A stretch of DNA of 64,000 nt from Herbiconiux ginsengi (GTDB lineage Bacteria; Actinomycetota; Actinomycetes; Actinomycetales; Microbacteriaceae): assembly GCF_900107435.1 (NCBI RefSeq), contig NZ_FNPZ01000002.1, positions 822,979-886,978 of the forward strand, given 5' to 3'. Below, piece by piece: positions 19,431 to 40,680 of the stretch; the stretch's first letter is position 1, and every line of letters starts with the position of its first letter. The notes beneath the pieces were generated by a model that was not told the DNA's origin, ran no database searches, and worked only from the letters and a program-made list of their open reading frames with translations. Position numbers and translations under genes: made by a program.

Positions 19431-19469
19431 GGTGTGTAGTATTGGTACACACCTGTAAAGCCACAGGTG
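19431..19469. promoter_or_regulatory. Putative operator at the left end of the catabolic island
   Basis: GGTGTGTA (19431-19438) and TACACACC (19446-19453) form an 8-base inverted repeat. CACCTGT (19450-19456) and ACAGGTG (19463-19469) form a second, overlapping one. They lie between the ABC-F start and the M24 gene. The first 13 bases, GGTGTGTAGTATT, recur exactly on the minus strand at 40668-40680 before the last gene of the island. Confidence 0.6.
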
Positions 19470-19496
19470 AAACAGCGACGTTTGAGGAGGGCTGAC

Positions 19497-20873
19497 GTGA
19501 TCAGCACAGCGACCACCGGCACGATGGCAGTCGACTGGGAGGCGCGAACCGATTTCGATCGCCTCCGCGAAGAACGGCTCGGCCGGCTCCGAGCCCAGTT
19601 GAACGCCTCCGACCTCGGGGCGGTGCTCGCCTTCGACTTCTCGAACATCCGTTACATGACGGCCACCCACATCGGCACCTGGGCGATGGACAAGCTGATC
19701 CGCTTCTCCCTGCTCACCCGCAACTCCGACCCCATCTCCTGGGACTTCGGCTCGGCCGCGAAGCACCACAAGCTGCACAACCCCTGGCTCGACGTCACGC
19801 ACTCCGAGATGGATGCCGACCCGCACTCCCCGCACCACGGCGCCACCCGGCCCCGCGCCGAGAGCGGCGCCCGCGCGGGCATCTCCACCCTCCGCGGCGC
19901 TTTCCACCCCGAAGCGGGGATCGCCGACGAGGTGGCGGCGAAGATCCGGCGGGAGCTCGAGAAGTTCGGCCTCCTCAACGAGCCGCTCGGCGTCGACGTG
20001 ATCGAGCTGCCCATCCTGTTCGCCCTGCAGCGCGCGGGCATCACGGTGGTCGACGGCCAGCAGGTGTTCATGGAAGCCCGGCGCATCAAGACGCAGGACG
20101 AGATCACGCTGCTCACCCAGTCGGCGTCGATGGTCGATGCCGCCTACGAGAACCTCTACGAGTTCCTGCGCCCGGGCGTGCGCGAGAACGAGACGGTCGG
20201 CCTCGTCGCCAAGACGCTCTACGACCTCGGCTCCGAGTACGTCGAGGGCGTCAACGCCATCTCCGGCGAGCGCTGCTCCCCGCATCCGCATGTCTACTCC
20301 GACCGCATCATCCGCCCCGGCGACCCGGCCTTCTTCGACATCCTGCACAGCTTCAACGGCTACCGCACGTGCTACTACCGCACCTTCGCGGTGGGCTCGG
20401 CGAGCCGTGCGCAGCGGGATGCCTACGTGCGGGCTCGCGAGTACATGGACAACGCGATCGACCTGGTGCGCCCCGGCGCCACCACGGCCGACATCGTGGC
20501 GGTCTGGCCGACGGCTCAGGAGTTCGGTTTCCCCGACGAGGAGGCGGCGTTCGCCCTGCAGTACGGCCACGGCGTGGGGCTCTCCATCTGGGAGAAGCCG
20601 ATCTTCTCGCGCCTGGTCTCCTTCGACCACCCGGAGGTGCTGCAGGCGGGCATGGTGTTCGCGCTCGAGACCTACTGGCCGTCGGCCGACGGCATCGGCG
20701 CGGCCCGCATCGAGGAGGAGGTGGTGGTGACCGAGACCGGCTGCGAGGTCATCACGAAGTTCCCCGCCGAGGATCTGCTGGTCGCGGGCGGCAACCGTTA
20801 CTTCACCATCAACGGTCCGCTCAATCCGCTGCGCAGCAGCCAGTCGCACCTGAACCGGCCGGACGCATCCTGA
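19497..20873 (+). CDS. M24-family creatinase/prolidase-like enzyme with an altered metal site
   Basis: A 458-residue protein with the N-terminal creatinase domain (about 20-180, DLGAVLAFDFSNIRYMTATHIG) and a pita-bread M24 domain. The first ligand Asp is in FFDILHSFNG, His in YGHGVGLS, and Glu residues in ALETYW and IEEEV. The second ligand Asp, normally in S-D-x-T-R-T-F, is Cys here (TCYYRTF). That suggests a non-classical or metal-independent enzyme of the creatinase kind. The start GTG 19497 follows GAGGAGG. Stop and next start overlap (TGATG). Confidence 0.85.
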   Translation: MISTATTGTMAVDWEARTDFDRLREERLGRLRAQLNASDLGAVLAFDFSNIRYMTATHIGTWAMDKLIRFSLLTRNSDPISWDFGSAAKHHKLHNPWLDVTHSEMDADPHSPHHGATRPRAESGARAGISTLRGAFHPEAGIADEVAAKIRRELEKFGLLNEPLGVDVIELPILFALQRAGITVVDGQQVFMEARRIKTQDEITLLTQSASMVDAAYENLYEFLRPGVRENETVGLVAKTLYDLGSEYVEGVNAISGERCSPHPHVYSDRIIRPGDPAFFDILHSFNGYRTCYYRTFAVGSASRAQRDAYVRAREYMDNAIDLVRPGATTADIVAVWPTAQEFGFPDEEAAFALQYGHGVGLSIWEKPIFSRLVSFDHPEVLQAGMVFALETYWPSADGIGAARIEEEVVVTETGCEVITKFPAEDLLVAGGNRYFTINGPLNPLRSSQSHLNRPDAS

Positions 20874-21757
20874 TGCCGGCGGTCGCGTTCGTCGGACTCG
20901 GCACGATGGGCAGCGCGACGGTGTCGCGCCTCATCGAGACCGGCCACGAGGTGCACGTCTGGAACCGGTCGCCCGAGCCGGTGGAGCGGATGCGCGCCCT
21001 CGGCGCCATCCCGCTCGGCTCGGTGGCCGAGGCGTTCCGGATCGGCACGGTGTTCTCGATGGTGGCCGACGACGCGGCCGCCGAGAGCCTGTTCACCGAC
21101 GACGTGCTGAGCGCCGCCCCCGAGGGCGCGGCGCACGTGAACCTCGCCTCGCTCAGCGTGGCCGCCACGCGCCGGCTCGCCTCGGCGCACCGGATGCGCG
21201 GGATCGACTATCTGGCCGTTCCCGTGCTCGGCCGCGCGGAGGTGGCCGCCGCCGGCGCCCTCAACCTCGTGGCCGCCGGGCCGGAGCAGGCACTGAAACG
21301 GGTGGAACCGGTGCTCCAGAGCATCGGCAAGCGCACCTGGTACCTCGGCGACGATGTCGCGGCCGCCAGCGTCGTGAAGATCGGGGTGAACTTCAACCTC
21401 ATCCACACCCTGCAGGCCCTCGCCGAATCCGTGACGCTGGTGGAGGCCGCGGGCATCGACCCGTCGGTCTTCGTCGACATCCTCACCGACACCGCCTACA
21501 CCGGCACGGCCTACACCGGCTACGGCCGGCTGATCGCCGAACGGCGATACAGCCCGCCCGGGTTCACGGTCGGGCTGGGCCTGAAAGACCTGTCCCTGGT
21601 CGAATCCGCCGCCGCGGACTACGACGTGGTGCTGCCCACCGTGCCGACGCTCCGCACGATGTTCGAAGCGGCGATCGGAGCCGAACTCGGCGACGCGGAC
21701 TGGTCGGCCATCGCCGAGGTCACCCGCGGGCTGGCCGCACAGCACAGCGAGCGCTGA
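20873..21757 (+). CDS. 3-hydroxyisobutyrate-dehydrogenase-like NAD(P)-dependent oxidoreductase
   Basis: A 294-residue beta-hydroxyacid dehydrogenase. The nucleotide-binding GLGTMG (8-13) with VWNRS after strand 2 suggests NADP preference. The catalytic Lys169 and Asn173 lie in VVKIGVN. It likely oxidises a beta-hydroxy acid or reduces the matching semialdehyde or imine. It is coupled by one base to the M24 gene and forms a two-gene plus-strand operon at the left end of the island. The substrate is not predictable. Confidence 0.88.
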   Translation: MPAVAFVGLGTMGSATVSRLIETGHEVHVWNRSPEPVERMRALGAIPLGSVAEAFRIGTVFSMVADDAAAESLFTDDVLSAAPEGAAHVNLASLSVAATRRLASAHRMRGIDYLAVPVLGRAEVAAAGALNLVAAGPEQALKRVEPVLQSIGKRTWYLGDDVAAASVVKIGVNFNLIHTLQALAESVTLVEAAGIDPSVFVDILTDTAYTGTAYTGYGRLIAERRYSPPGFTVGLGLKDLSLVESAAADYDVVLPTVPTLRTMFEAAIGAELGDADWSAIAEVTRGLAAQHSER

Positions 21758-21787
21758 GGCGCCACCGGCTCACTCCCCGGTGGCGCC
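21758..21787. terminator. Bidirectional hairpin between convergent genes
   Basis: GGCGCCACCGG (21758-21768) pairs perfectly with CCGGTGGCGCC (21777-21787) around an 8-base loop. It lies between the dehydrogenase and XRE-cupin genes, whose ends face each other, and overlaps the last codons of the latter. No U-tract on either side. Confidence 0.65.
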
Positions 21788-22549
21788 GTAGTGGCTGCCG
21801 TAGCCGAAGCCCTCGCCCCCGGAGTGGCGGCCGAGCCGCGCCACCTGCTCGGCGATCTCGCGCGGGTGCGCGAACCCGTGGCGACCCACCACGGCCCAGA
21901 TCGAGACGCAGTCCTGGGTGTAGGGATTGCTGATGCGGTGCGGGATGGTGGAGTCGAACGAGAGGCTGTCGCCCGGCTGCAGGGTGTCTTTGTCGAAGCC
22001 GACCTGCAGATCCATCTGCCCGGTCAGCACGTGCAAGTACTCCCAGCCGGCGTGCCGCATCATGTTCTCGACGGAGTTGGACTCGCTGCCGGCGGCGTAG
22101 GTGACGCGCAGGTATTCGACCAGCGGGTCGTCCTGCACGGTCAGGCGCTCCCAGCGCACGCCGTCGACCCGGATGTCGGGCGCGGTGCCCGCGCGCTGCA
22201 GCCCCGGGATGCCGACCGTGGTCAGCCGTTCCCCGACGGGCGCTGCCGCGGCCTCGCCGGTCGGAGCGCCGGACTCCAACGGCACCCCGGTGACGGCGGT
22301 GGCGAGCAGGGAGTCGAGCGAGAGATCGAGTTCGGAGACGATCGTGTAGAGCGTTCCGATCGAGGGCGTCGCGCGACCCAGTTCCACCTGCGAGATGAAA
22401 CTCGCCGAGACGCCCACGCGCCGGCCGAGCTCGCGCAGCGAGATGCCTTCGGCCGTGCGGGCCTGCCGGATGGCGGCTCCCATGCCGGGCGCACCGTTGT
22501 CCCGCACCGCGTCGACCAGACGCTCCCGCGGGGAGCCAGCTCGTGCCAT
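21770..22549 (-). CDS. XRE-family regulator with C-terminal cupin sensor
   Basis: A 259-residue regulator. The helix-turn-helix spans about residues 23-77 (MGAAIRQARTAEGISLRELGRRVGVSASFISQVELGRATPS). A cupin domain lies at about 140-240 (WEYLHVLTGQMDLQVGFDKDTLQPGDSLSFDSTIPHRI) and probably binds the effector. ATG 22549 follows GAGGGG; ATG 22564 would add five residues. It is encoded at the end of the transport operon but separated from it by a strong hairpin, so it has its own promoter. It is a candidate controller of the island. Confidence 0.88.
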   Translation of the reverse strand: MARAGSPRERLVDAVRDNGAPGMGAAIRQARTAEGISLRELGRRVGVSASFISQVELGRATPSIGTLYTIVSELDLSLDSLLATAVTGVPLESGAPTGEAAAAPVGERLTTVGIPGLQRAGTAPDIRVDGVRWERLTVQDDPLVEYLRVTYAAGSESNSVENMMRHAGWEYLHVLTGQMDLQVGFDKDTLQPGDSLSFDSTIPHRISNPYTQDCVSIWAVVGRHGFAHPREIAEQVARLGRHSGGEGFGYGSHYGATGE

Positions 22550-22635
22550 GTCACCCCTCGTCATCGCGCATTTCCGCTCTCCAGGGTAGACCGTGACCGT
22601 GATTCTCCGGCCAGGAACTGCCGTGATCGTTCAGA

Positions 22636-22689: not shown

Positions 22690-23106
22690 TCAGCCCTTCG
22701 GGCGCGGTGTCGGCTGGAATGCGATAAGCCTCCAGCGACCGCTGGCGGGGTCGCGCGCCCACACCGACAACGTGACGCTCTCGAGTTCGAGCGGAGTGCC
22801 GGCCGACACGGCCGCGGCGCTCATGCCGCCGACCACCAGAACCGTGTCGGCACCCGCGACCACCACCTCGTGCACGTCGTGGTCGAGCCGGGAGTAGCGC
22901 AGGGTGCCGCTGCCGAGCTTCTCGAGCACGGCAGCCTTGCCGTCGCGCAGCGTGTTCGAGTGGCCGTAGCCGAGCCGATCGTCGAGGAGTTCCCGCAGGG
23001 TCTCGACGTCGGCGTTCAGGAAGGCCCGGTAGCGCTCGGCGTCGAGGCGGAGCACCTCCGTCTCGACGGCGGTCGCCGCGCCGCCTGCGCCAGCCTCGAC
23101 GGTCAT
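22690..23106 (-). CDS. SnoaL/NTF2-like (DUF4440-type) protein
   Basis: A 138-residue cone-shaped NTF2-fold protein: LDAERYRAFLNADVETLRELLDDRLGYGHSNTLRDGKAAVLEKL, then a beta sheet ending VWARDPASGRWRLIAFQPTP. Members include ketosteroid-isomerase-like enzymes and ligand-binding proteins. Its ATG overlaps the stop of the ABC gene (ATGA), so it is the last gene of the island operon and probably serves the same pathway. The reaction is unknown. Confidence 0.85.
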   Translation of the reverse strand: MTVEAGAGGAATAVETEVLRLDAERYRAFLNADVETLRELLDDRLGYGHSNTLRDGKAAVLEKLGSGTLRYSRLDHDVHEVVVAGADTVLVVGGMSAAAVSAGTPLELESVTLSVWARDPASGRWRLIAFQPTPRPKG

Positions 23107-25607
23107 CGCGGAATCCTCCGCCGCCGGCGCAGCCGCACCGCCATCGGCAGCACGGCGGCCACCAGCACGAAGATGCCCTGCAGCCAGTACTGCCACGAGA
23201 GGTCGACGTTGAGGAACGGCAGCGAACTCGTGATGGTCTGCAGCAGGATGGCGGCCGCCGCGACGGCGAGCGCCGATCCCGAGCCGCCGAAGATGCTCAC
23301 ACCGGCGATGACGATCGCGGTCACCGAGGTGAGGGTGAGCGCCTGGCCCACGCCCGCGTCGCCGATGCCGGTCTTCGTGAAGAGCACGACCCCCGCGATG
23401 GAGGCCAGCACCCCGGATGCGACGGTGGCGAGCAGGCGCATCCGCGGCACGTCGACGCCCATCCGGTTCGCCTTCACGGCATCCGATCCGGCGGCCCGGA
23501 AGCCGCGGCCGACGGCCGTGTTGTTGAGACCGAGCCAGAGCAGCACCGCGATCACCACGGCGACCACGAGCACCAGCGGGATGCCGGCGACGGCGGTTCC
23601 GAGAGCCGTCATGAGATCGGCGCTCGCCTGCCCACCGGGCTTCGGCCGCAGCAACTGGGCGGTGCCGAGCACCGCGATCGACGACACCAGGGTGGCGATG
23701 ACCGGAGGCATCCCGAGTCGGGTGACGAGCAATCCGTTGATCAGGCCCACCACGACGCCGGCCACGATGGCGATCGCGATACCGACCACCAAGAGGCCCG
23801 GCCCTCCCCCGCCGAAGAACGACACGATCACCGCCGAGAGCGCCACCACCGAGCCGATCGACAGGTCGATGCCACCGGTGATCACCACGGCGAGCTGGGC
23901 CAGCCCGACCAGGATCAGGATGGCCGCGGCCGCGAGCAGCTGGCCGATGCTCAGCGGGCTGAGGAACGACGGCGCGACGCCGGCGGTCACGAACACCAGG
24001 GCGAAGGTGATGATGAGGAGCGAGACGGTCTGCACCTCGCCGCGCTGGTAGAACGGGAGGCCCTTCTTCGACGTCAGCTCGCCCGCATCCGCGTCGTCAT
24101 TGATCGAGGTCTCGGTCGAGAGCACGGCCGCGCCGGTGATCCGCCGTTCGGTGAGGGTGTCGCCCTCGAGTTCAGCTTGCACCCGGCCGCGGGAGAACAC
24201 CACGACGCGGTCGCAGAGCCCTTCGAGCTCGACGGCGTCGGTGGAGAGGATGACGACGGCCATCCCGTCGTCGGCCATCGCGCGCAGGAAGGCGTAGATC
24301 TCCACACGCGCGCCGGCGTCGACGCCCTGGGTGGGGTCTTCGACGAGCAGCACGGCCGGGCTGCCGAGGCGAGCCCGGGCGAGCAGCACCTTCTGCTGGC
24401 TTCCGCCGGAGAGCGAGGTGATCGGGGTCTCGAGCGTGGGAGTCTTCACGGCGAGGCCGCCGATGGCCTCGTGCACCAGGGCGTTCTCGGTGCGGGGCGA
24501 CACGACGCCGGCCGGCATGGCCAACGAGATGTTCGGGGCGATCACGTTCTCGCGCACGCTCAGCTGGCCGAACATCGCCTCGCCGAGGCGGTCGCCCGGG
24601 AGGTACACGATGCCGGCCGCAGCCGCACGCTTCGAGGTGAGGCCGCTCACGTCACGCCCGGCCAGCGTCAACGAACCCGTGCCGCGGGCGACGCCGGCCA
24701 GAGCCTTCATGAACTCGCGCTGCCCGTTGCCCTCGACTCCGGCGAGACCGACGATCTCGCCCCCGCGGGCGGTGAAGTCGACGTCGCGGAACGCGCGCCC
24801 GGAATAACCGGATGCGGCGAGCACCAGGGGGCGATCGCCACCATCGGGCTTGTCGGGGAACGTGGTCTCGAGCGACCGGCCGACGATGAGCTCGACGATC
24901 TCGTCGGCGTCGTAGTCGGAGACACGGCCGCGGCCGACCACGCGGCCGTCGCGGAGCACCGTCATCCGTTCGGCGATCTCCATCACCTCGGGAATGCGGT
25001 GCGTGATGTAGACCACGGCCGAGCCGGTGGCCAGGAGGCCCCGCACCTGCCCGAAGAGCCATTCGGTCTCGTCGGCGCCGAGCGCCTCGGTGGGCTCGTC
25101 GAGCACCAGCACCTTCGGCTCGGAGGCGAGGGCGGCCGCGATCTCCACGAGGTGCGCTTCGCGCTGCGACAGCGCCGAGACGCGCTGCCGCACGTCGACC
25201 TCGAGGCCGAGCCGGGCGAACAGCTCGGCCGTCCAGGTGGTGGCGGCGCGCCGGGGCGGGCGCACGGAGTCCGGCAGCAGCAGGAGCATGGCGTCGACGA
25301 CCGTCAGTGACGGCGCGAGTGCAGGAACCTGGTAGACGATGGCGAGACCGCGTTCACGGGCCTCGCGGGGGTGCATGCGGGGGCGGGGTTCGCCGCCCAG
25401 GTCGATCGTTCCGGTGTTGGGAACGACCGACCCGGCGGCGATGCCGACCAGCGTCGATTTGCCGGCTCCGTTCTCGCCGAGGATCGCATGCACCTCGCCC
25501 GCGTAGACCGTGACGTCGACGTCGTCGAGGGCACGGACACCCGGGTACTGCTTCCCGATGCCCGAGAGCGTGAGGAGCGGCACGGGCTGGTCGACTGTCT
25601 CGTTCAT
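23103..25607 (-). CDS. Fused sugar-type ABC importer: two ATPase domains plus permease
   Basis: An 834-residue protein combining an RbsA/MglA-like double ATPase (1 to ~500) with an RbsC-like permease (~520 to end, about 9-10 TM). The first Walker A is GENGAGKST (44-52). The first signature is degenerate (LSQREAHLVEIA). The second domain has a degenerate Walker A (GVEGNGQREF) and a good signature LSGGSQQKVLLAR, as in ribose-type importers. A covalent ATPase-permease fusion is unusual for this class, where they are normally separate chains. One-base overlaps with the binding-protein gene indicate a single operon. Confidence 0.9.
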   Translation of the reverse strand: MNETVDQPVPLLTLSGIGKQYPGVRALDDVDVTVYAGEVHAILGENGAGKSTLVGIAAGSVVPNTGTIDLGGEPRPRMHPREARERGLAIVYQVPALAPSLTVVDAMLLLLPDSVRPPRRAATTWTAELFARLGLEVDVRQRVSALSQREAHLVEIAAALASEPKVLVLDEPTEALGADETEWLFGQVRGLLATGSAVVYITHRIPEVMEIAERMTVLRDGRVVGRGRVSDYDADEIVELIVGRSLETTFPDKPDGGDRPLVLAASGYSGRAFRDVDFTARGGEIVGLAGVEGNGQREFMKALAGVARGTGSLTLAGRDVSGLTSKRAAAAGIVYLPGDRLGEAMFGQLSVRENVIAPNISLAMPAGVVSPRTENALVHEAIGGLAVKTPTLETPITSLSGGSQQKVLLARARLGSPAVLLVEDPTQGVDAGARVEIYAFLRAMADDGMAVVILSTDAVELEGLCDRVVVFSRGRVQAELEGDTLTERRITGAAVLSTETSINDDADAGELTSKKGLPFYQRGEVQTVSLLIITFALVFVTAGVAPSFLSPLSIGQLLAAAAILILVGLAQLAVVITGGIDLSIGSVVALSAVIVSFFGGGGPGLLVVGIAIAIVAGVVVGLINGLLVTRLGMPPVIATLVSSIAVLGTAQLLRPKPGGQASADLMTALGTAVAGIPLVLVVAVVIAVLLWLGLNNTAVGRGFRAAGSDAVKANRMGVDVPRMRLLATVASGVLASIAGVVLFTKTGIGDAGVGQALTLTSVTAIVIAGVSIFGGSGSALAVAAAAILLQTITSSLPFLNVDLSWQYWLQGIFVLVAAVLPMAVRLRRRRRIPR

Positions 25608-26791
25608 CAGCTGGAGAACGCCTTCTTGACCTCGTCGGCGGTGAGCAGCGACGACGGGGAGCCGTCATCCGGCGCACCCTGCTGGCAGACATCCGAGGGC
25701 GACTTGGCGCCGTCGGTCTTGCCGGTGGAGTCCTCGGCCAGCGAGAGGTCGTAGATCGAGGGCTCGGTGTCGGAGGTTCCCGCGACGGAGGCGAGCGCCT
25801 TACGCAGGGCGACCCGGCCGACCCAGGTGCGCGACGACACGGTGGCGAGCTCGTACGACGGGTTCGCCGCCTTCAGCGCCTCGAAGCCGCAGCTCAGGCT
25901 GTTCTGGTCGGTGGTGGCGATGGGAGGCAGCGAGATACCGGCCGCCTCGTAGGCGCGGATGACACCGTCGGTCGAGGCTCCGTAGTCGGAGATCACGGCG
26001 TCGATCTGCGGGTACTGCGAGAGCAGTCCGCTCATGGCCTGCTGCGCCTGCGCCGGGTCCCAGTTCGTGGTGACCGGCTCGTCGGTGAGGAGCTTCACCT
26101 GGGGGTTGTCGGCGAGCACTTCCTTGATGCCCTCGAGCTCCTGCGACGAGACGGCGCTACCGGCCGGTCCGCCGAGGAACACGACGTTGCCGCCTGCGTC
26201 GCCGAGCTGGTCGACGACCCACTGGGCCCACGACTTGCCGCTGAACTGGGGCGACCAGTCGGTGTAGTCGAGGTAGTCGGAGCCGGCCGTGCCCTCGGGG
26301 TCGGAGGCGAACGCGACCACGGTCGATCCCGACTGCACCGCGCTGCGGAGAGCCGACAGGTGCGCTTCGCCGGGGCCCGCATCCGGGATGACGAGCACGA
26401 TGTCGGTGCCCTTGGCCGCCATGCTGGTGATGGCGGCGGTGGTGGCCTGCAGGTCGCCGCGGCCGGCTTCGTAGTCGATCGACGTGATGGCCGGGCACTT
26501 CGCGGCCTCGGCCTCGATCTCGGCGCGCACGGTCTTCGACCACGAGTTGGTGCCGAAGCCGTCGACCACGCCGAGGGTGATCTCGCCGTCTTGCGGACAG
26601 ATGCTCGAGATGTCGGCGAACTGGTCCATCGTGCCGGTGGTGCCGACCGCGATGTCGGCGCCGGCCGAGGTCGAGCCGCCTCCGCTCGCGTTGGTCGACG
26701 AGCATCCGCCGAGCAGGAGGGCGAGTGCCGACGCCGCGGCGATGCCGCCGACGGCGATGGTGGTGCGGGAGCGTGTTGCGGGTTTTTTCAT
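25607..26791 (-). CDS. Periplasmic-type substrate-binding lipoprotein of the ABC importer
   Basis: A 394-residue type I (Peripla_BP_4-like) solute-binding protein. A lipobox LGGC ends the signal peptide at about residue 30, so it is tethered outside the membrane. Fold markers are ITLGVVDGFGTNSWSKTVRAEIEAEA, DIVLVIPDAGPGEAHL and AVISDYGASTDGVIRAYEAAG. The ligand class is unclear: ribose-type binding proteins also serve purine nucleosides, autoinducers and polyols. The ATG 26791 overlaps the permease stop by one base (TGATG). Confidence 0.9.
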   Translation of the reverse strand: MKKPATRSRTTIAVGGIAAASALALLLGGCSSTNASGGGSTSAGADIAVGTTGTMDQFADISSICPQDGEITLGVVDGFGTNSWSKTVRAEIEAEAAKCPAITSIDYEAGRGDLQATTAAITSMAAKGTDIVLVIPDAGPGEAHLSALRSAVQSGSTVVAFASDPEGTAGSDYLDYTDWSPQFSGKSWAQWVVDQLGDAGGNVVFLGGPAGSAVSSQELEGIKEVLADNPQVKLLTDEPVTTNWDPAQAQQAMSGLLSQYPQIDAVISDYGASTDGVIRAYEAAGISLPPIATTDQNSLSCGFEALKAANPSYELATVSSRTWVGRVALRKALASVAGTSDTEPSIYDLSLAEDSTGKTDGAKSPSDVCQQGAPDDGSPSSLLTADEVKKAFSS

Positions 26792-27864
26792 CAGGATGAC
26801 TCCTCGTTGAGTGCGGTGGGGTGGGCAGGGGTCTTGCGGCGGTGCACCATGGCCTTCAGGCGCGAGGTGTTTCCGCCGAGCTTGAGTTGCACGACGATTC
26901 CGACGGCGATGATCACGGCCTGGATGATGTTCTGGGCGGCCGTGGTCTGGGTGAAGGTCTGCACGAGCTGGCCGAGCTGACCGAGGAAGAGGGCGCCGAG
27001 CGCGGTGCCGATCACGCTGCCCTTGCCGCCGGTGAGGGCGGTGCCGCCGAGCACGACGGCGGCGATCGAGGGCAGCAGGTAGGCGTCGCCGGCGGTGAGG
27101 GTGGGTGAGCGGAGCAGGCCCGCCAGCAGCACGCCGCAGGCGGCAGCGAGCAACGCGGAGAGCGTGTACGCCGCGACCACGTAGCCGTTCGTGCGGAGGC
27201 CGATGATGCTCGCCGCCCGCGGGTTGGCCCCGACGAGCTCGAAGCGCCGGCCGGCCCGCAGGGCCTTCAGCACCACGTGCACCACCAGCACCACGATGGT
27301 GGCGATGACCACGAGCACCGGGATGCCCAACCAACGCGAGATCGAGAAGCCGGCCAGCGACGCCACCACCTGCCCGCCGTAGCCGCCCGAGACAGCCTGC
27401 ACGGTGCCGACCATCAGGGCGTTGCTCGCGATCGTGACCACGAGCGGCGGCAGACCGAAGAAGGCGATCACGAGACCGCTCACCAGCCCGAAGGCTGCCG
27501 GCACGAGGATGGCGACGACGATCGCCGCTCCCAGTCCCAGCTGATCCGGGCCGCCGAATTTCGCCACGATCAGGGCACCGAGCGTGATGGCGCCCGGAAC
27601 CGAGAGATCCAGGCCGCCCTGCTGGATGACGAGGGTCTGCCCCACCGCTACCACGGCGGTGAGCGCCGCGAACGGCAGCATCGACGACATCGCGGTGGCC
27701 GAGACGCTCCCGGGCGCGATCAACGGACTGATGGCGAACAGCACCACCACGGCGAGCAGCGCCCGCGCCGCCGGCCAGGAGGCGACGCGCGCCCAGAGCG
27801 AGACGGGCTTGATGCCGGGTCGCTCGTGTCCGGTCTGGGCTTTCGGCGCGGATTCCACGGTCAT
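26791..27864 (-). CDS. ABC importer permease (RbsC-like)
   Basis: A 357-residue integral membrane protein with about 10 helices. The branched-chain/ribose permease signature is TLVIQQGGLDLSVPGAITLGALI, with GANPRAASIIGLR in the ATPase-contacting loop. It presumably pairs with the permease half of the fused ATPase protein two genes downstream to make a heterodimeric channel. The ATG overlaps the amidohydrolase stop (ATGA). Confidence 0.92.
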   Translation of the reverse strand: MTVESAPKAQTGHERPGIKPVSLWARVASWPAARALLAVVVLFAISPLIAPGSVSATAMSSMLPFAALTAVVAVGQTLVIQQGGLDLSVPGAITLGALIVAKFGGPDQLGLGAAIVVAILVPAAFGLVSGLVIAFFGLPPLVVTIASNALMVGTVQAVSGGYGGQVVASLAGFSISRWLGIPVLVVIATIVVLVVHVVLKALRAGRRFELVGANPRAASIIGLRTNGYVVAAYTLSALLAAACGVLLAGLLRSPTLTAGDAYLLPSIAAVVLGGTALTGGKGSVIGTALGALFLGQLGQLVQTFTQTTAAQNIIQAVIIAVGIVVQLKLGGNTSRLKAMVHRRKTPAHPTALNEESS

Positions 27865-33328: not shown

Positions 33329-33389
33329 GATTCTCCTCGTCGAGATCTCGGGGTCCGATTGTTCAGTATTGAGAAGCCTGAGCCACTTT

Positions 33390-33432
33390 GTCAACTATTA
33401 GTTGACATTTCTCTGCTGATGTAAAGCATCAG
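33390..33432. promoter_or_regulatory. Palindromic operator upstream of the amidohydrolase-transport operon
   Basis: GTCAACTATTAGTTGAC (33390-33406) is a 17-base palindrome with 6-base arms. CTGATG (33416-33421) and CATCAG (33427-33432) form a second inverted repeat. Both lie in the AT-rich 115-base gap between the E2 gene end and the first amidohydrolase start, where the operon promoter must be. Confidence 0.55.
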
Positions 33433-33443
33433 TTAATATCTGG

Positions 33444-34913
33444 TCAGACGAGCATGCTGAGTGGATTCTCGATCTTCTGCGTGAACGCGGCGAGCCAGCG
33501 AGCTGCGAGCGCTCCGTCGACCGCGCGATGGTCGACGGAGAGGGTGCACCGCATGACCGTCGCGACCGCCAGCTGGCCCTCCACGACCACCGGTTGAGGC
33601 TTCGCCGCTCCGACGGCGAGGATGCCCGACTGGGGCGGGTTGAGGATGGCCGAGAACTCGAGCGTGCCGTACATGCCGAGATTCGAGACCGAGAAGCTGC
33701 CGCCCTCGAGCTCGTCCTGCTTCAGCCGCCGGTCTTTCGCCTTCTGCACGAGGGCGGAGATCTCGCTGCTCACCCGGGAGAGGCTCGCGGCGCCGACATC
33801 CCGAACCACCGGAGTGACGAGACCGCCCTCGGTGGCGACCGCCACGGCGATGTCGACGGTGCGGTGCTGCCGCATGCCCTCGTCGCTCCAGGTGACGTTG
33901 GCCTCGGGAACGTCGGCGAACGCTGCAGCGACGGCCTTCACCACGAAGTCGTTGACCGAGATCTTCACGGGCGACGTGGCGTTGATGCGCGCACGCAGGG
34001 CGAGCAGCTCGTCGACCCGGCACTCCGTCGTGAGGTAGAAGTGCGGCACCGTCGACTTGCTCTCGGTGAGCCGTCGGGCGATGGCGCGGCGCATGCCCGT
34101 ATGCGGCACGAGGTCGAATTCGGGGTCGCCGGTCTCGCTGCGTGACGCCGCGGGCGACGCGCCGGGAACGGTGGTGGCGGTCGGAGCGGCTGCGCTCGAT
34201 GAACCGGATGCTCCCGAGTCGGCGACAGGAGCCGCGAGACTCCCGGATGGCGCGGCTTCGACGTCGCGCCGCACGATGCGCCCGCCCGGCCCGGAGCCAG
34301 TGAGGGTCGCGACGTCCACGCCCCGCTCGCGGGCGAGCTTACGGGCGATCGGGCTCGCGAACAGGCGTTCGCCGTCTGTGGCGGACTCGGGAGCGGGTGC
34401 CGACGGTTCGGCGCGATCCGCGGCATCCGTCGCCCCGGCCTGCGCCGGAGCGACCTGCACCGACGCGGCCTCGACCACGGGTGCGCCGGCTTCGGGGTCA
34501 CGCGTACCGGCCGCCACGGCTGACTCCGGGTCACGCCCACCAGCCGCCGCGTCGAGCACCTCAGGCGCCGACGGCGACGCCGCGCTCGGGTCGCTCGCGG
34601 CAGCGGCGCCCGATTCGGCGGGAGCCGGCGCGGCCACTCCGCCCAGTGCCGCGTCGATGTCGGCGTCGGAGTCGCCCTCGGCGATCAGCACCGCGATCGG
34701 CGCGCCGATCTCACCCGAGGCACCCGCGTCGAGCACCAGGCGCCCGACCACTCCGGCCTCCTCGGCGTTGTACTCCACGATCGCCTTCTCGGTCTCGATC
34801 TCGGCGATCGGATCGCCCACGGCGATCGAATCGCCGGGGCCCACCAGCCAGTTCGCGATCGCGGCCTCGCTGGAACCGGCGAGCACGCTCGGCATCCGCA
34901 CGATCGACACCAT
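33444..34913 (-). CDS. 2-oxoacid dehydrogenase E2 component (dihydrolipoyl acyltransferase)
   Basis: A 489-residue E2 chain. One lipoyl domain carries Lys43 in IETEKAIVEY. A long Ala/Ser/Pro-rich linker follows (~85-190), then a peripheral-subunit-binding domain (SPIARKLARERGVDVATLTGSGPGGRIVRRDVE). The catalytic acyltransferase domain contains DHRAVDG (His462, Asp466). It transfers the acyl group made by E1 to CoA. ATG 34913 is one base after the E1 stop. No lipoamide dehydrogenase (E3) gene is in the window, so a housekeeping E3 must serve. Confidence 0.93.
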   Translation of the reverse strand: MVSIVRMPSVLAGSSEAAIANWLVGPGDSIAVGDPIAEIETEKAIVEYNAEEAGVVGRLVLDAGASGEIGAPIAVLIAEGDSDADIDAALGGVAAPAPAESGAAAASDPSAASPSAPEVLDAAAGGRDPESAVAAGTRDPEAGAPVVEAASVQVAPAQAGATDAADRAEPSAPAPESATDGERLFASPIARKLARERGVDVATLTGSGPGGRIVRRDVEAAPSGSLAAPVADSGASGSSSAAAPTATTVPGASPAASRSETGDPEFDLVPHTGMRRAIARRLTESKSTVPHFYLTTECRVDELLALRARINATSPVKISVNDFVVKAVAAAFADVPEANVTWSDEGMRQHRTVDIAVAVATEGGLVTPVVRDVGAASLSRVSSEISALVQKAKDRRLKQDELEGGSFSVSNLGMYGTLEFSAILNPPQSGILAVGAAKPQPVVVEGQLAVATVMRCTLSVDHRAVDGALAARWLAAFTQKIENPLSMLV

Positions 34914-34914
34914 C

Positions 34915-37104
34915 TCAGGCCTCCCGTCCGAATGCGGCACGCACGCGCTCGAGGCCTGCGACGACCTCTTCGGTGCGGGCGATGGCGGCGCGCTCGAGCA
35001 CCTTGGAGATGCTCGGCGACGCCTCGGAACCGGTGACGCGCTGCACGGGCTGATCGAGCCAGTCGAAGAAGCGGCGCTGGATCTCGTCGGCGAGCCAGCT
35101 GCCGTAGGAGGTGCCCTGGGCGCCCTGCTCCACGATCAGCACGGCGTTGGTCTTCTGCACACTCGCGCCGATGGTGTCCCAGTCGATCGAGGCGCGGTCG
35201 AGGAAGCGCAGGTCGATCAGCTCGCCGTCGACGCCGGTCTGCTCGATCGCCTCGAGCGAGTGGCGCACCATCGAGAGGTAGCTGATGACGGTCACCTCGG
35301 AGCCGGTGCGGCGGATCGCCGCCGTGCCGAACGGGATGCGCACGTCGAGGTCGTCGGGGATCTCGCCCGACTCGCCGTAGAGGTCGACGTGCTCGATCAC
35401 GAGCACCGGGTCGTCCATGGCCAGCGCGGTGTTCATCAGGCCGATGTAGTCGTAGGGCGTCGAGGCGGCGACGATCCGCCACCCCGGGCTGGTGGCGAAG
35501 ATGCCGGCCGGGTCCATCAGGTGCTGCGATCCGTAGCCGGAACCCATGGCGATCTTCGTGCGCAGCACGAGGGGAACCGGGTTCTCGCCGCCGAACATGT
35601 GCCGAGCTTTGCCGATCTGGTTGAACACCTGGTCGGCGGCCACCCACATGAAGTCGGGGTACATGAACTCCACCACCGGGCGGAATCGCCCGTCGAGTGC
35701 GATGCCGCCACCGAGGCCGGCGAACGCGTTCTCGCTGATCGGCGTGCCGAGCACCCGCCCCGGGTACTTCTCGGCGAGCCCCTTGGTGGCTCCGTTCGTG
35801 CCGCCCTTCAACCGGTGGATGTCTTCGCCGAGCACCACGATCCGGTCGTCCTCGCCCATGCGGCGATCCATCACGGCCGCCACGGCGTCGATGAACTTGC
35901 CGGGCTTCGACCCTCCGGCGTAGTCGGCTTCGTCGATCTCCTCGCCGCCCGCGAGCTCCGAGAGATCGCCGCGGATGCCGACGTCGACGAACGCGGGGTC
36001 GGGCCAGAGAGCAGGCACGATCCGGCGGATGCCGGGCTTCGCCTCAGGATCGGGCTCGACGAGTTCGGCCATCGCGAGGCGCATGGCCTCCTGCGCCTGG
36101 GCGCGCACCGAGGCGATGCCGGCGTCGTCGATCAGACCGAGCTTCGTCAGCTCGGACGCCATCCGGAGCAGCGGATCGCGCTCGCGCCACTGCTTCTCCT
36201 CCTCCTTCGAGCGGTAGCCGAAGGCGCTGCCCGGGTAGGGGCCGTTCTGGTGGAAGTAGCGGTAGACCTCGGCCTCGATCACGACCGGACCACGGCCCGA
36301 ACGCAGGTGCTCGAGCGCCTGTTCCATCGCGAGGTGCACGGCCAGCGGGTCCATGCCGTCGACCCGCCAGGCGGGGATGTCGAAGCCCAGCGCCCGAGCC
36401 GAAAGCCGGGGCTCCTTCGTGACCTCGCTGACGTGGGTCGACACGGCATACAGGTTGTTCTCGATGAAGAAGCACAGGGGCAGATCCCACGCGGCCGTGA
36501 GGTTCATGCTCTCCAGCACCGAGCCGATGTTCGTGGCGCCGTCGCCGAAGTAGCTGACCGTGACGTCCGTGGTGCCGGCGTGCTTCTGCGACCACGCGTT
36601 GCCCGCGCCGAGCGGCACTCCCCCGCCGACGATGGCGTTGGTGCCGAGCGCACCGGCCTCGAACCACTGCAGGTGCATCGACCCGCCGCGACCGCGGCAG
36701 TAGCCCTGCGCGAGGCCGAGGATCTCGGCCAGGGTGCGTTGCAGCACCTCCTGCACCGCGGGGGTCACGAGGGCCGTGAGGTCGAGCCCGTCGGGGGCGA
36801 CGTGGGCGAGGGCCTTGGCGAGGAACTGGTGGTGGCCACGGTGCGAGCCGTTCACCCCGTCGCTCGAACGCAGTCCCACGATGGAGCCGACCGCCCCGCC
36901 TTCCTGCCCGATGCTCGAGTGCGCCGGGCCGTGAACGAGGCCTTCACCGGCGAGTTCGAGCACGGATTCCTCGAACGCCCGGATGAGATGCAGCTGACCG
37001 AGCATGGTGGCGAGGAGGGCGGGATCGGCGTTCTTCCAATCCGCCGAGGTCGTCTGCAGTTCCACCCAGGGTGAGCCGGGCTTCAGACGCGTGGTGCGGG
37101 GCAT
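34915..37104 (-). CDS. Fused alpha-beta E1 component of a 2-oxoacid dehydrogenase
   Basis: A 729-residue thiamine-diphosphate enzyme. Residues ~25-345 are E1 alpha, with the ThDP motif GDGATNIG...FFIENN (187-217). Residues ~395-729 are E1 beta (VVLGEDIHRL, GGGIALDGRFRPVVEFMYPDF, QHLMDPAGIFATSPGW). The fused layout resembles acetoin/branched-chain-type and TPP-dependent dehydrogenases of actinobacteria rather than AceE. It decarboxylates an unknown 2-oxoacid and passes the acyl to the E2 encoded next. The ATG 37104 is divergent from a VOC/GntR operon. Confidence 0.92.
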   Translation of the reverse strand: MPRTTRLKPGSPWVELQTTSADWKNADPALLATMLGQLHLIRAFEESVLELAGEGLVHGPAHSSIGQEGGAVGSIVGLRSSDGVNGSHRGHHQFLAKALAHVAPDGLDLTALVTPAVQEVLQRTLAEILGLAQGYCRGRGGSMHLQWFEAGALGTNAIVGGGVPLGAGNAWSQKHAGTTDVTVSYFGDGATNIGSVLESMNLTAAWDLPLCFFIENNLYAVSTHVSEVTKEPRLSARALGFDIPAWRVDGMDPLAVHLAMEQALEHLRSGRGPVVIEAEVYRYFHQNGPYPGSAFGYRSKEEEKQWRERDPLLRMASELTKLGLIDDAGIASVRAQAQEAMRLAMAELVEPDPEAKPGIRRIVPALWPDPAFVDVGIRGDLSELAGGEEIDEADYAGGSKPGKFIDAVAAVMDRRMGEDDRIVVLGEDIHRLKGGTNGATKGLAEKYPGRVLGTPISENAFAGLGGGIALDGRFRPVVEFMYPDFMWVAADQVFNQIGKARHMFGGENPVPLVLRTKIAMGSGYGSQHLMDPAGIFATSPGWRIVAASTPYDYIGLMNTALAMDDPVLVIEHVDLYGESGEIPDDLDVRIPFGTAAIRRTGSEVTVISYLSMVRHSLEAIEQTGVDGELIDLRFLDRASIDWDTIGASVQKTNAVLIVEQGAQGTSYGSWLADEIQRRFFDWLDQPVQRVTGSEASPSISKVLERAAIARTEEVVAGLERVRAAFGREA

Positions 37105-37170: not shown

Positions 37171-37234
37171 AATGTATCCATTGCAACCGCAATTGCCCTT
37201 GAGATCGAGTTAATCTATCCTGGTTGGATACATT
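37171..37234. promoter_or_regulatory. Divergent promoter region with TGTATCCA/TGGATACA sites
   Basis: AATGTATCCA (37171-37180) and TGGATACATT (37225-37234) are exact reverse complements 44 bases apart. The right copy is also part of TATCC-TGGTT-GGATA (37216-37230). TTGC-AACC-GCAA lies at 37181-37192. The region separates the E1 gene from the VOC/GntR operon and is a likely target of the GntR protein encoded there. Confidence 0.55.
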
Positions 37235-37251
37235 CGACGAAGGAGTCCTGA

Positions 37252-37779
37252 ATGGCACTACCTGGCTTGCGCGGCGCCGAACACCTCGGCTTCACGGTGC
37301 CCGACCTCGACGAAGCACATCGTTTCCTCGTCGAGACCATCGGCTGCGAACACGTGTACTCCCTGCCCGGGATGCGCCACGACGACTCCGACTGGATGCG
37401 CGAGCACCTCGCGGTCGACCCGCGAGCGGCGGTGAAGGAGATCCGGTTCTACCGCTGCGGCACCGGACCCAACTTCGAGGTCTTCGAGTACTCCGTGGCG
37501 CCCGGCCAGAGGCCGCAACCACGCAACAGCGACGTGGGAGGGCACCACGTCGCGTTCTACGTCGACGACCTCGACGCCGCCGTGACCCGGTTGCGCGAGG
37601 AGGGCATCCGGGTGCTCGGCGAGCCGACGGCCAGCACCAATGCGTCCCGAGGCCAGCGCTGGGTGTACTTCCTCAGTCCCTGGGGGATGCAGTTCGAGTT
37701 GGTGAGCTACCCCGAGGGCAAGGCCTACGAGCAGGGCGCTCCGGTGCTGTTGTGGCATCCCGCCCGGCCCGCCGAGTGA
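37252..37779 (+). CDS. VOC-family (glyoxalase-like) enzyme
   Basis: A 175-residue vicinal-oxygen-chelate protein. The first half is GAEHLGFTVPDLDEAHRFLVETIGC and the second GGHHVAFYVDDLDAAVTRLREEGIRVLG, ending WVYFLSPWGMQFELVSYP. The metal residues are plausible (His11, a Glu of FEVFEY, His near 97, Glu in FELVSY). An isomerase, epimerase or dioxygenase-like step in the island pathway is possible. AAGGAG precedes ATG 37252. Confidence 0.87.
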   Translation: MALPGLRGAEHLGFTVPDLDEAHRFLVETIGCEHVYSLPGMRHDDSDWMREHLAVDPRAAVKEIRFYRCGTGPNFEVFEYSVAPGQRPQPRNSDVGGHHVAFYVDDLDAAVTRLREEGIRVLGEPTASTNASRGQRWVYFLSPWGMQFELVSYPEGKAYEQGAPVLLWHPARPAE

Positions 37780-37837: not shown

Positions 37838-38497
37838 ATGACCATCGACGATTCGCTCGACAACGTGGCCAGCCACCGCATCGCCGACAGTCTTCGCACC
37901 GCCATCCTCGACGGACAGCTGGCGCCCGGCACCCGCATCCGTCAGGGTGATCTCGCCGACCAGTTCGGCGCGAGCCGCATCCCGGTGCGCGAGGCGCTGC
38001 GGATGCTGCACTCCGACGGACTGGTGACCCTGGTCGCCAATTCGGGCGCCTGGGTCGCCAAACTGTCGATGGCGGAGTGCATCGAGGCCTACCAGGTGCG
38101 CGAACGCGTGGAGCCGTTGCTCTTGCGCACGAGCATGCCGCATCTCGACGGGGAGGCGATCGACCGGTTGCAGGCGATGGTCGAGGCGATGGAGGCCGAC
38201 GACTCGGTCGACTTCTTCATGCGCACCGACCGCGACTTCCACCTGGCCACCTACGCCGGTGCTCCTCCGTCGATGCTGTCCGACCTCATCCGGCGCCTCT
38301 GGAACACCACCCAGCACTACCGGCGGGCGTACGCGATGCTCGTGCGTGCGCCGTCGATCGGGGTGACCCACATGGAGCACCACCTGTTGGTCGACTGCAT
38401 CCGGCGGCAGGACGCCGACGACGCCGAACGGGTGCTCGTGATGCACATCCAGCGCACGCGGCTGGAGCTGCAGAAGCATCCCGATCTCTTCCGCTGA
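37838..38497 (+). CDS. GntR-family regulator, FCD subfamily
   Basis: A 219-residue regulator. The N-terminal winged helix-turn-helix is RIADSLRTAILDGQLAPGTRIRQGDLADQFGASRIPVREALRMLHSDGLV. The C-terminal FCD effector domain (about 80-210) has the helical pattern ECIEAYQVRERVEPLLLR and histidines (FHLAT, HHLLVDCI) that often bind metal and a carboxylate ligand. It is cotranscribed with the VOC gene from the divergent promoter and probably represses it and the E1/E2 genes until a pathway acid binds. Confidence 0.92.
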   Translation: MTIDDSLDNVASHRIADSLRTAILDGQLAPGTRIRQGDLADQFGASRIPVREALRMLHSDGLVTLVANSGAWVAKLSMAECIEAYQVRERVEPLLLRTSMPHLDGEAIDRLQAMVEAMEADDSVDFFMRTDRDFHLATYAGAPPSMLSDLIRRLWNTTQHYRRAYAMLVRAPSIGVTHMEHHLLVDCIRRQDADDAERVLVMHIQRTRLELQKHPDLFR

Positions 38498-38513: not shown

Positions 38514-38530
38514 GAGCGGGATGCCCGCTC
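38514..38530. terminator. Hairpin between convergent GntR and reductase genes
   Basis: GAGCGGG (38514-38520) pairs with CCCGCTC (38524-38530) across a 3-base ATG loop, 17 bases after the GntR stop and touching the stop of the reductase gene on the other strand. No U-tract. Confidence 0.5.
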
Positions 38531-39572
38531 AGGCGGCGAGACCGGCGCCGGCCAGGTGGCGCAGCAGAGCCGCGTTCTCGGGCGACGGGTCGAGTTCGTG
38601 CCGCTCGATGCGGTGGGCCACCTCCACGACGGCCGCGTTGACGGGAGCCTGCAGACCGAGTCGCTTCGCCTCGGTGACAACGTATCCGTTCAGGTCGTCG
38701 ACCTCGCTGTGCCGGCGTTTGGTCCAGTCCTGCAGGATCGTGGTGGTGGTGTTCGGCAGCACGAAGCCGCGATAGAGCGTGTCGAGCAGGGTCTCCACGA
38801 CCGTCTCGGGGCGACTCACGTCGTCGTGGCCGAGGCCGAAGATGGGCATGATGCGGTGGCCGGCGGCCACGGCGACGTCGAGCGCCTCCTGGCCGGAGCG
38901 CAGCATCAGCTCGCGCATGCCGGGATGCTCGAGGGCGGCCATCATCGGCAATCCGAGGCTCGCCGTGGTGACGAGGGTGGTCGCATTGCTGACGAGCTTC
39001 ATCCACTTGGCCGAGCGGATGTCGTCGACCACCTCCACCCGCCCCGCGTGGGCCAGCAGATCAGCCACCTCCCGCTCGCGGCCCCGCGTGGCGTCGGAGA
39101 GGCTGCCGACCGCGAACCAGGAACGGTCGGGGCCGGAGTGCCGCTCCACGACGCTCGGCGTGAACATCGTCGACGACACCTCGATGACGCAGCCCAGCGT
39201 GCGGTGCGCGCCGACCACCTCCGCGATCGCGTCCACGGTCATGCCGTTCTGCACGCCCACCAGCAGGCCGTCGGGAGCCAGGTGCGGCTCGATCAGGTGT
39301 GCCGCCCAGCGGCTGTCGTAGGCCTTCATCAGCAGGAGCACCACGTCGAACGGCTCGGTGAGCGTCGCCACCTCGCAGAGGTGGAGCACGCGCACGGCCG
39401 TGTTCTCCGAGCGGTCCGGCAGGTTCACGGTGAGGCCGCGCTCACGCATGGCCGCCACGTGCTCGGGCCACTGCTCGATCAGGGTCACGTCGAGCCCGGC
39501 GCGGATCAGGTCGGCGCCGATCGAGGCTCCGTTCGCCCCGGCGCCGAGCACGGCGATCCGGGGGCCGGTCAT
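38529..39572 (-). CDS. Ketopantoate-reductase-like (ApbA/PanE family) oxidoreductase 1
   Basis: A 347-residue two-domain enzyme. The N-terminal NADP-binding motif is IAVLGAGANGASIGADLIRAG, VQNGM sits at the active-site hinge, and the catalytic Lys is in SAKWMKLVSNA. It is longer than housekeeping PanE (~300 residues). Tandem duplication and location argue for a catabolic 2-oxoacid/2-hydroxyacid conversion, not pantothenate synthesis. The ATG 39572 overlaps the upstream paralogue's stop by four bases. Confidence 0.88.
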   Translation of the reverse strand: MTGPRIAVLGAGANGASIGADLIRAGLDVTLIEQWPEHVAAMRERGLTVNLPDRSENTAVRVLHLCEVATLTEPFDVVLLLMKAYDSRWAAHLIEPHLAPDGLLVGVQNGMTVDAIAEVVGAHRTLGCVIEVSSTMFTPSVVERHSGPDRSWFAVGSLSDATRGREREVADLLAHAGRVEVVDDIRSAKWMKLVSNATTLVTTASLGLPMMAALEHPGMRELMLRSGQEALDVAVAAGHRIMPIFGLGHDDVSRPETVVETLLDTLYRGFVLPNTTTTILQDWTKRRHSEVDDLNGYVVTEAKRLGLQAPVNAAVVEVAHRIERHELDPSPENAALLRHLAGAGLAA

Positions 39573-40597
39573 CGGGCGACCACCCCGCTGAGCAGCAGGT
39601 CGAGGTTGGCGGGATCGGCCGGGAGTTCGCCGGCCTCCACCTGCCGGGCGAGATCGACGACGAGTCGGTTGAACGGGGCATCCTGACCGGCTCGCTCGAG
39701 CACGTCGACCACGAGGCCGTTGATCTCGGCGACCTCGCTGCGGCGGCCCTTCAGCCAGTCCTGCAGCGAGGTGGTCTTCGTGTCGGGCAGTGAGAACCTG
39801 GTGAGCACGATCTCGAAGAGCTGCTCGGCGAAGGCGTCGGGCTCGTCGAGGCGGGCGCCTTCCATGCCGAAGATGGGGCGCAGCCGGTTGCCGTCGGCGA
39901 GTGCCGCTCGGGCCGCCTCCGTGCCGCAGGCCAACATGAAGTCGTACATCCCGGGCACCTCGGCAGCGGTGTTCAGCTCGAGATTGAGCAGGGCGGAGGG
40001 CACGAGCTCGGCGGCGTTGACGATGAGCTTCATCCACTTCGACGAGCGGATGTCGTCGGAGATCTCCACCGTTCCCGCGTGCCGCAGGGCGGCCGCGACC
40101 TCTTCTTCGCGGCCCTCGGTCTCGGGCGAGATGCTGCCCACGGCGAACCACGATTCCTCGGGCGGGTTCTGGCGGTTGGTGATGCCGGGCTCCCACATGT
40201 TGGAGGCGAGCTCGATGACGGCGCCGATGGTGCGCCCGGCGCCGACGACATCGGCCATGTCGTCGATCGACATGCCGTTCTGCAGCCCGATCACCAGGCT
40301 GTCGTCGTGCAGCAGCGGCTTCACGAGTTCGCAGGCCCAGCGCGTGTCATAGGCCTTGACCCCGACGAAGACGAGGTCGAATTTCTCGCGGATGGTCGCC
40401 ACATCGCAGAGGTGATGGGCCTTCACCGGGGTGATCTCGGTGCGGTCGGGCATCCGCACCTCGATGCCGCGCTCGCGGATGGCCTCGACGTGGGCGGGCC
40501 ACTGCTCGATGAACGTGACATCGAGCCCGTGGCGGGCCATGTCGGCGCCGATTCCCGCGCCGTTGGCGCCCGTTCCCACTACAGCTATCTTCGTCAT
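39569..40597 (-). CDS. Ketopantoate-reductase-like (ApbA/PanE family) oxidoreductase 2
   Basis: A 342-residue paralogue of the next enzyme, with IAVVGTGANGAGIGADMARHG, LQNGM and SSKWMKLIVNA. The two share layout throughout, including the LQDWxKxRxSEV segment near the C-terminus, and may form a heteromer or handle successive intermediates. The ATG 40597 is the first start on the minus strand after the shared GGTGTGTAGTATT motif. GGAAGG lies about ten bases upstream. Confidence 0.88.
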   Translation of the reverse strand: MTKIAVVGTGANGAGIGADMARHGLDVTFIEQWPAHVEAIRERGIEVRMPDRTEITPVKAHHLCDVATIREKFDLVFVGVKAYDTRWACELVKPLLHDDSLVIGLQNGMSIDDMADVVGAGRTIGAVIELASNMWEPGITNRQNPPEESWFAVGSISPETEGREEEVAAALRHAGTVEISDDIRSSKWMKLIVNAAELVPSALLNLELNTAAEVPGMYDFMLACGTEAARAALADGNRLRPIFGMEGARLDEPDAFAEQLFEIVLTRFSLPDTKTTSLQDWLKGRRSEVAEINGLVVDVLERAGQDAPFNRLVVDLARQVEAGELPADPANLDLLLSGVVAR

Positions 40598-40625
40598 CGA
40601 GGTGCCGCCTTCCCACCCGCGGGCG

Positions 40626-40680
40626 GCACAACCGTTGTGCTGTCCGGCCCAGGTGTACGTGTGAAGTAATACTACACACC
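40626..40680. promoter_or_regulatory. Putative operator at the right end of the catabolic island
   Basis: On the minus strand this region starts GGTGTGTAGTATT (40680-40668), identical to 19431-19443 at the other end of the island, followed by a CACAC half-site (40660-40664 region). GCACAA-CCG-TTGTGC (40626-40640) forms a further short inverted repeat in the probable leader of the reductase operon. Confidence 0.6.

Follow-up and report, generated by a model that had tools for sequence, protein, structure and literature searches.

XRE-cupin regulators of Pseudomonas aeruginosa are reported (PMC7901475) to be local inhibitors that recognize palindromic motifs at core-promoter sites, and promoter occlusion has been proposed for them. 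The 64,000-nucleotide window analysed here (from the soil actinobacterium Herbiconiux ginsengi; assembly GCF_900107435.1, contig NZ_FNPZ01000002.1, positions 822,979 to 886,978; coordinates below are those of the window) contains a gene island that encodes a protein of this type and a GntR/FCD regulator, both of which had been placed inside the island by an earlier prediction for this stretch (the original prediction). The island carries three palindromes, denoted operators A1, A2 and A3 (jointly motif A; Table 1). With a probability of about 0.8, judged from sequence comparison, these would be operators of one island-encoded dimeric XRE-cupin repressor, one for each of three transcription units, and the genes for E1 and E2 of a 2-oxoacid dehydrogenase complex, a glyoxalase/VOC protein (GLO) and GntR would form a second unit, controlled by GntR through a different motif, B.

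Like the Pseudomonas local repressors (PsdR, PauR, ErfA and others; PMC7901475), the island protein combines a helix-turn-helix (HTH) with a cupin domain, its gene lies beside the proposed targets, the palindromic sites are few, and the targets are metabolic operons with uptake genes. Unlike them, it is actinobacterial, is predicted rather than known to repress, and is associated with an operator family of the form TGTnWAS-N5-STWnACA, 21 bp long, and with three PRK08204-like amidohydrolases. The best-scoring NCBIfam model for the protein is PuuR, with which it shares an XRE-type HTH; an assignment as PuuR is rejected, since the protein scores 50.4 bits where the cut-off is 211, the best stretch being the HTH alone. 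The island GntR resembles the FadR/FCD subfamily (PMC4494728) in having GntR and FCD domains and a divergent promoter region that holds short palindromes as a pair; its proposed motif (AATGKATCCATT / ATTGGATCCAAT) departs from the GT-N3-AC spacing given there as typical of FadR-type sites and is distinct from motif A. Other bacteria are already known to use this kind of regulation, and the site itself is real and conserved; no paper on this cluster or operator appears among the literature matches listed.

Three palindromes, one per unit

By position and strand, three units are predicted: M24-HIBDH (+), KPR1-KPR2 (-) and AH3-ADH-AH2-AH1-perm2-SBP-ABC-DUF4440 (-), where HIBDH is a 3-hydroxyisobutyrate dehydrogenase-type protein, KPR denotes ketopantoate-reductase family proteins, AH amidohydrolases, ADH an alcohol dehydrogenase, perm2 a second ABC permease and SBP a substrate-binding protein. 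The original prediction had described a 13-base motif shared by the two island ends, and this description stands: GGTGTGTAGTATT is present at 19431-19443 (+) and 40668-40680 (-) with 0 mismatches, and the 12-mer GTGTGTAGTATT inside it has exactly two copies in the searched genome (4,853,715 bases in 12 contigs), both at the island ends, with none for the reversed-pattern control. Both copies run on into CACAC, as had also been noted, and thereby form 21-bp palindromes with a 10+1+10 layout, each 13-mer/12-mer copy representing one half. The 21-mer GTGTGTAGTATTRSTWCACAC at up to three mismatches occurs genome-wide solely at A1 and A2, each of which matches on either strand, and the control gives 0, so that the motif is not common across the genome. 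Each site precedes the first inward-reading gene at its end, A1 ending 44 bp before the chosen GTG start of M24 (which has GAGGAGG upstream) and A2 61 bp before the ATG of KPR1.

In the wider family (the best 80 of the 376 named loci that an AH1 search gave, plus fetched relatives), sites vary around the half-site TGTnWAS, and the comparative core is TGTnWAS-N5-STWnACA. A search with this core identifies a third perfect palindrome in the window, at 33389-33407 (A3), which has diverged in sequence from A1 and A2 and, like motif B, goes beyond what had been predicted. The pattern TGTNWASTANTASTWNACA at up to two mismatches has three matches in 4.85 Mb, all in the island and one per unit (reversed control 0); hence the palindromes are few and lie near the regulator gene, with none outside the island at this threshold. 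The earlier view that the two end copies bracket and define a single 21-kb regulon is rejected on three grounds: the third site heads an internal operon, the E1-E2/GLO-GntR block has its own conserved motif, and this block is located elsewhere in four Herbiconiux genomes.

In several genomes, weaker second copies of the palindrome are found 19-31 bp from the main operator (33420-33438 and 19454-19472 in the window; 7192/7216 in locus L075; 8125/8144 in L155). The adjacent copies suggest that binding may be tandem or cooperative.

Conservation in relatives

Among 398 genomes of the family, 16 contain the 21-mer at up to three mismatches. Seven of the 398 encode an XRE-cupin that matches at 65% identity or more (the next best identity is 48%), and all seven carry the 21-mer; of the remaining 391 genomes, 9 match, a number comparable to that of the reversed control (8 genomes). 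In one close relative (G321), two sites 21 kb apart flank the same gene order as in the window. In four Herbiconiux genomes (G093, G349, G205 and G397), the site precedes KPR1 of a compact module, KPR1-AH2-AH1-perm2-SBP-ABC-XRE-cupin; GntR, GLO and E1 are encoded at another locus there, with no GntR beside the motif-bearing module. The H. moechotypicola locus L077 is an example of the module without a neighbouring GntR gene. A site matching A3 is present before AH2 in these four split genomes and before ADH in G026. When the core is sought at up to two mismatches in 11 relatives, G250, G011 and G155 each have a single two-mismatch match, which does not lie in an island; given reversed-control matches in 4 of the 11, these are read as chance.

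The expectation that the motif would be kept at orthologous promoters is borne out for KPR1 and, in two relatives, for M24. Upstream of KPR1, 16-20 of the 21 palindrome bases agree with the window in six relatives, compared with 31-58% of the flanks; the KPR1 upstream regions of G205 and G397 were left out of this footprint alignment because the loci used contain too little upstream sequence. Upstream of M24, the agreement is 20/21 in G321 and, weakly, 13/21 in G026 (flanks 57% and 38%, respectively).

Counts across homologous loci point the same way; they were made after dropping homologues with less than 35% identity, alignments that begin beyond residue 30, upstream pieces shorter than 80 bases and most genome-repeating loci. 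At up to one mismatch, a site is found in 54 of the 369 regions upstream of proposed targets (KPR1 10/37, AH1 15/90, AH2 6/33, AH3 4/23, KPR2 4/32, M24 9/44, XRE-cupin 3/50, HIBDH 2/27 and ADH 1/33), compared with 2/369 for the reversed pattern and 0.0 in dinucleotide shuffles for each of the nine genes. The corresponding count upstream of E1, E2, GLO, GntR, ABC, SBP and perm2 is 1/192 (a perm2), with 0/79 for E1, E2, GLO and GntR; at up to two mismatches, motif A appears in 1 of 22 E1 and 1 of 21 GLO regions. The proposition that the shared 13-mer is a mere core promoter element, to which the -10-like TAGTAT in the shared half and the same orientation of both copies to their genes might point, or a product of chance, can be dismissed as highly improbable: a promoter element would recur genome-wide and this motif does not, there being two exact copies in 4.85 Mb with a palindromic extension, a third site, conservation against diverged flanks and upstream enrichment, and reversed genome controls of 0.

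Promoter overlap and proposed mechanism

Of the 22 distinct AH1/AH2/AH3/ADH sites, 17 have an operator whose right arm coincides with TTGACA, and a -10 hexamer with 4 of 6 matches follows at a distance of 17-18 bp. In the window, the A3 promoter matches at 10 of 12 positions (shuffles 0.2), and the overlap between operator and core promoter is clear. At A1 and A2 of the window, as in G321 and the split clusters, the conserved half contains TAGTAT or TACTAT, which would explain the fixed orientation of this half towards the gene.

The best reading of this arrangement is promoter occlusion by a dimer. The ligand-free XRE-cupin dimer would cover the -35 hexamer at A3 or the -10-like TAGTAT at A1 and A2 and so block RNA polymerase, with one operator for each unit (A1 for M24-HIBDH, A2 for KPR1-KPR2 and A3 for the long operon from AH3 to DUF4440). 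Binding of a pathway metabolite to the cupin domain would then release the protein from DNA, and E1-E2 and GLO-GntR would be controlled separately by the GntR/FCD regulator via motif B.

The XRE-cupin might instead be an activator or a dual regulator, which appears improbable. Activator-dependent promoters are often weak, and a sigma-70 promoter scan finds none at A1 and A2; the weaker palindrome copies beside the main sites would also suit such a role. Against this, a TTGACA -35 hexamer coincides with A3 and with 16 further AH1/AH2/ADH sites, and the characterised XRE-cupins of P. aeruginosa are reported as inhibitors (PMC7901475).

Which regulator owns motif A

The island XRE-cupin matches Pfam HTH_3 with 45.4 bits (cut-off 23) and Cupin_2 with 42.1 bits (cut-off 27.2), with the XRE-type HTH at the N-terminus and the cupin domain at the C-terminus, and among 52 candidates scored in this genome, it alone matched, with no second relative at E<=1e-8. 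For the locus counts, a homologue needs 33% identity or more across over 120 residues within the stretch fetched, and sites upstream of all island genes are included. On this basis, XRE-cupin homologues are found in 30 of the 33 loci with motif A compared with 18 of the 60 without it (Fisher p 7e-9, a guide only, the loci being truncated and related). In a set of 12 genomes, all with a KPR1 homologue and GntR, the seven that have AH1 and this XRE-cupin contain the motif, and the five that have neither do not. The latter (G011, G155, G250, G288 and G375, all Herbiconiux) encode GntR with 60-71% and a KPR1 homologue with 65-71% identity and yet lack the 21-mer at up to three mismatches, with no AH1 at E<=1e-100 and no XRE-cupin above 44%. 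The XRE-cupins encoded in the window, in G321, in G026 and in the split Herbiconiux clusters have a recognition-helix region that reads SASF(I/L)SQVELGR; in most XRE-cupin paralogues near M24 in other genomes, it reads SASL-x-SQVE(T/I)GK, and a related but different palindrome is found nearby. G373 encodes a further protein of the SASF(I/L)SQVELGR type and has no site in the locus.

Control of both flanks by the GntR/FCD protein through motif A, the other option left by the original prediction, is improbable. GntR is encoded within the island and is weakly associated with motif A across loci (14/33 compared with 12/60 without the motif; Fisher p 0.03), and the A2 core AGT-ATT-ACT fits the GT-N3-AC spacing that PMC4494728 gives as typical of FadR-type sites. 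This spacing, however, is missing from A1 and A3. GntR is rejected as the owner of motif A on the strength of the five motif-free genomes that encode it, the locus co-occurrence, the 0/79 count and the presence of motif B in its neighbourhood in 25 of 25 regions. Thus, of the claim that one regulator, XRE-cupin or GntR, acts on both flanks, the part concerning a single locally encoded regulator is very probably correct, and the choice, largely settled by comparison, falls on the XRE-cupin as the best candidate.

Several observations weigh against the XRE-cupin repressor, in addition to the association of GntR with motif A and the fit of the A2 core to FadR-type spacing. The motif-free five genomes lack AH1 as well as this XRE-cupin, so that module and regulator are not separated there, and in the four genomes where GntR is absent beside the motif, it is encoded elsewhere and could act in trans. 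Three of the 33 motif loci (L080, L108 and L120) show no XRE-cupin, one of them, L108, with a GTGTGTA-type site and no XRE-cupin in view; the upstream region of the XRE-cupin gene itself in the window is without a site at up to two mismatches; and XRE-cupin homologues in other genera, G026 excepted, are 33-48% identical, possibly paralogues with shifted specificity. The upstream and locus counts are not independent, as they include close relatives, divergent pairs sharing one site and the overlapping G321 loci L022 and L074 counted apart, and the KPR1 excess is weaker at up to two mismatches (14/37, compared with 5 for the reversed pattern and 0.5 for shuffles). G321 is without a site upstream of AH3, the E2-AH3 gap there being about 37 bp, and thus the internal promoter is not universal. 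Finally, the -10 matches lack significance when taken individually (a fraction of 0.01-0.19 of the shuffles does as well), and at A1 and A2, where the promoter scan came out empty, TAGTAT is the only sign of overlap.

In nine loci (L158, L159, L160, L163, L164, L078, L079, L082 and L092), M24 has a second kind of XRE-cupin (38-44% identical) encoded nearby or divergently, and a related palindrome is located within the intergenic region or close to it.

Motif B and the proposed GntR unit

The fourth block of the island consists of E1-E2 (-) and GLO-GntR (+), which diverge from 37105-37251. A palindrome distinct from motif A, motif B, is present at up to two mismatches in all 25 distinct E1-GLO regions, that of the window included, and in at least two copies in 21 of them; plain letter shuffles, the only control for a motif derived from the same regions in which it was counted, average 0.2 and 0.0 of 25, respectively. 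Because a GntR homologue is present in each of these E1-GLO loci, more than half of which were fetched with GntR as the query, motif B is assigned to GntR, and the GntR/FCD regulator probably acts on it. In genome searches at up to one mismatch, motif B is found in 9 of 12 genomes (reversed control 2/12); the three missed, G093, G205 and G349, contain relaxed sites.

Of the 21 regions that contain at least two motif B sites, 20 have two of them separated by 52 or 62-63 bp (about 5 or 6 helical turns), a spacing that would suit looping or cooperative binding.

Gene content and functional implications

The operon limits are predicted from gene layout. In the long unit, most starts and stops overlap, the AH2-AH1 gap is 55 bp, and the XRE-cupin gene lies 125 bp further on.

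Table 1. Predicted regulatory sites and genes of the island, in window coordinates
Feature	Position	Strand	Remarks
Operator A1	19432..19452	+	21-bp palindrome GTGTGTAGTATTGGTACACAC, 5' of M24-HIBDH; holds -10-like TAGTAT
Possible weak second core copy	19454..19472	+	2 mismatches; 21 bp downstream of A1
M24 metallopeptidase-family protein	19497..20873	+	PF00557; first gene of left unit
HIBDH, 3-hydroxyisobutyrate / tartronate-semialdehyde reductase family dehydrogenase	20873..21757	+	PF03446, PF14833; second gene of left unit
XRE-cupin regulator	21770..22564	-	Pfam HTH_3, Cupin_2; proposed repressor at A1-A3
DUF4440/SnoaL-like small protein	22690..23106	-	between ABC gene and XRE-cupin gene
ABC transporter ATPase fused to permease (sugar/ribose type)	23103..25607	-	
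SBP, substrate-binding protein	25607..26791	-	Pfam Peripla_BP_4
perm2, second ABC permease	26791..27864	-	
AH1 amidohydrolase	27861..29246	-	above PRK08204 cut-off
AH2 amidohydrolase	29302..30741	-	above PRK08204 cut-off
ADH, zinc alcohol dehydrogenase family protein	30738..31865	-	
AH3 amidohydrolase	31862..33328	-	best model PRK08204, just under cut-off; first gene of long operon
Operator A3	33388..33408	-	palindrome core TGTCAACTAATAGTTGACA; right arm is TTGACA -35, AATACT 18 bp downstream
Second core copy beside A3	33420..33438	-	1 mismatch; 31 bp from A3
E2 acyltransferase, 2-oxoacid dehydrogenase complex	33444..34913	-	GntR-type unit
E1 (fused alpha-beta), 2-oxoacid dehydrogenase complex	34915..37104	-	GntR-type unit
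Motif B site 1	37171..37182		AATGTATCCATT; proposed GntR operator
Motif B site 2	37223..37234		GTTGGATACATT; 52 bp from site 1
GLO, glyoxalase/VOC protein	37252..37779	+	
GntR/FCD regulator	37838..38497	+	proposed to act on motif B, not motif A
KPR2 ketopantoate-reductase family protein	38529..39572	-	
KPR1 ketopantoate-reductase family protein	39569..40597	-	first gene of right unit
Operator A2	40659..40679	-	21-bp palindrome GTGTGTAGTATTACTTCACAC, 5' of KPR1-KPR2; holds -10-like TAGTAT

The enzyme set, with three PRK08204-like amidohydrolases, a sugar-type ABC transporter, dehydrogenases, ketopantoate-reductase-like proteins and a 2-oxoacid dehydrogenase, suggests that an organic compound of some kind is catabolised. 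With 25 NCBIfam models listed per amidohydrolase, the only cut-off that AH1 and AH2 exceed is that of PRK08204, a 'hypothetical protein' model, and AH3 exceeds none; M24 is below the cut-off of all 12 models listed, and the solved-structure matches of AH1 and M24 are only distant deaminases, hydrolases and dipeptidases. The set of amidohydrolase, ABC, KPR and M24 genes recurs, in shuffled order, in Microbacterium, Agromyces, Pimelobacter, Dactylosporangium and others (L074-L103).

A broader interpretation, tentative and put at slightly less than even odds, is that of a recurrent, apparently uncharacterised actinobacterial pathway under two separable regulons, one of the XRE-cupin (uptake, amidohydrolases, M24 and ketopantoate-reductase-like proteins) and one of GntR/FCD (2-oxoacid dehydrogenase and VOC protein). 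In the G000/G321/G026 lineage, M24-HIBDH would have been captured by the XRE-cupin switch through a gained KPR1-type operator; in other Herbiconiux, M24 would still have another XRE-cupin paralogue close by, whose site is related but not the same. Some genomes carry the two regulator-motif pairs as separate modules, others as a single merged island. For a pathway found repeatedly among Actinobacteria, the locus offers a concrete pairing of operator and candidate regulator, and the three defined promoters could report the inducing compound of this pathway.

Beyond the right operator, a gene for an NYN-domain protein is located at 40960-41700 (-). The right end of the window (62001-64000) has a G+C content of 60%, compared with 64-75% in the other 2-kb steps.

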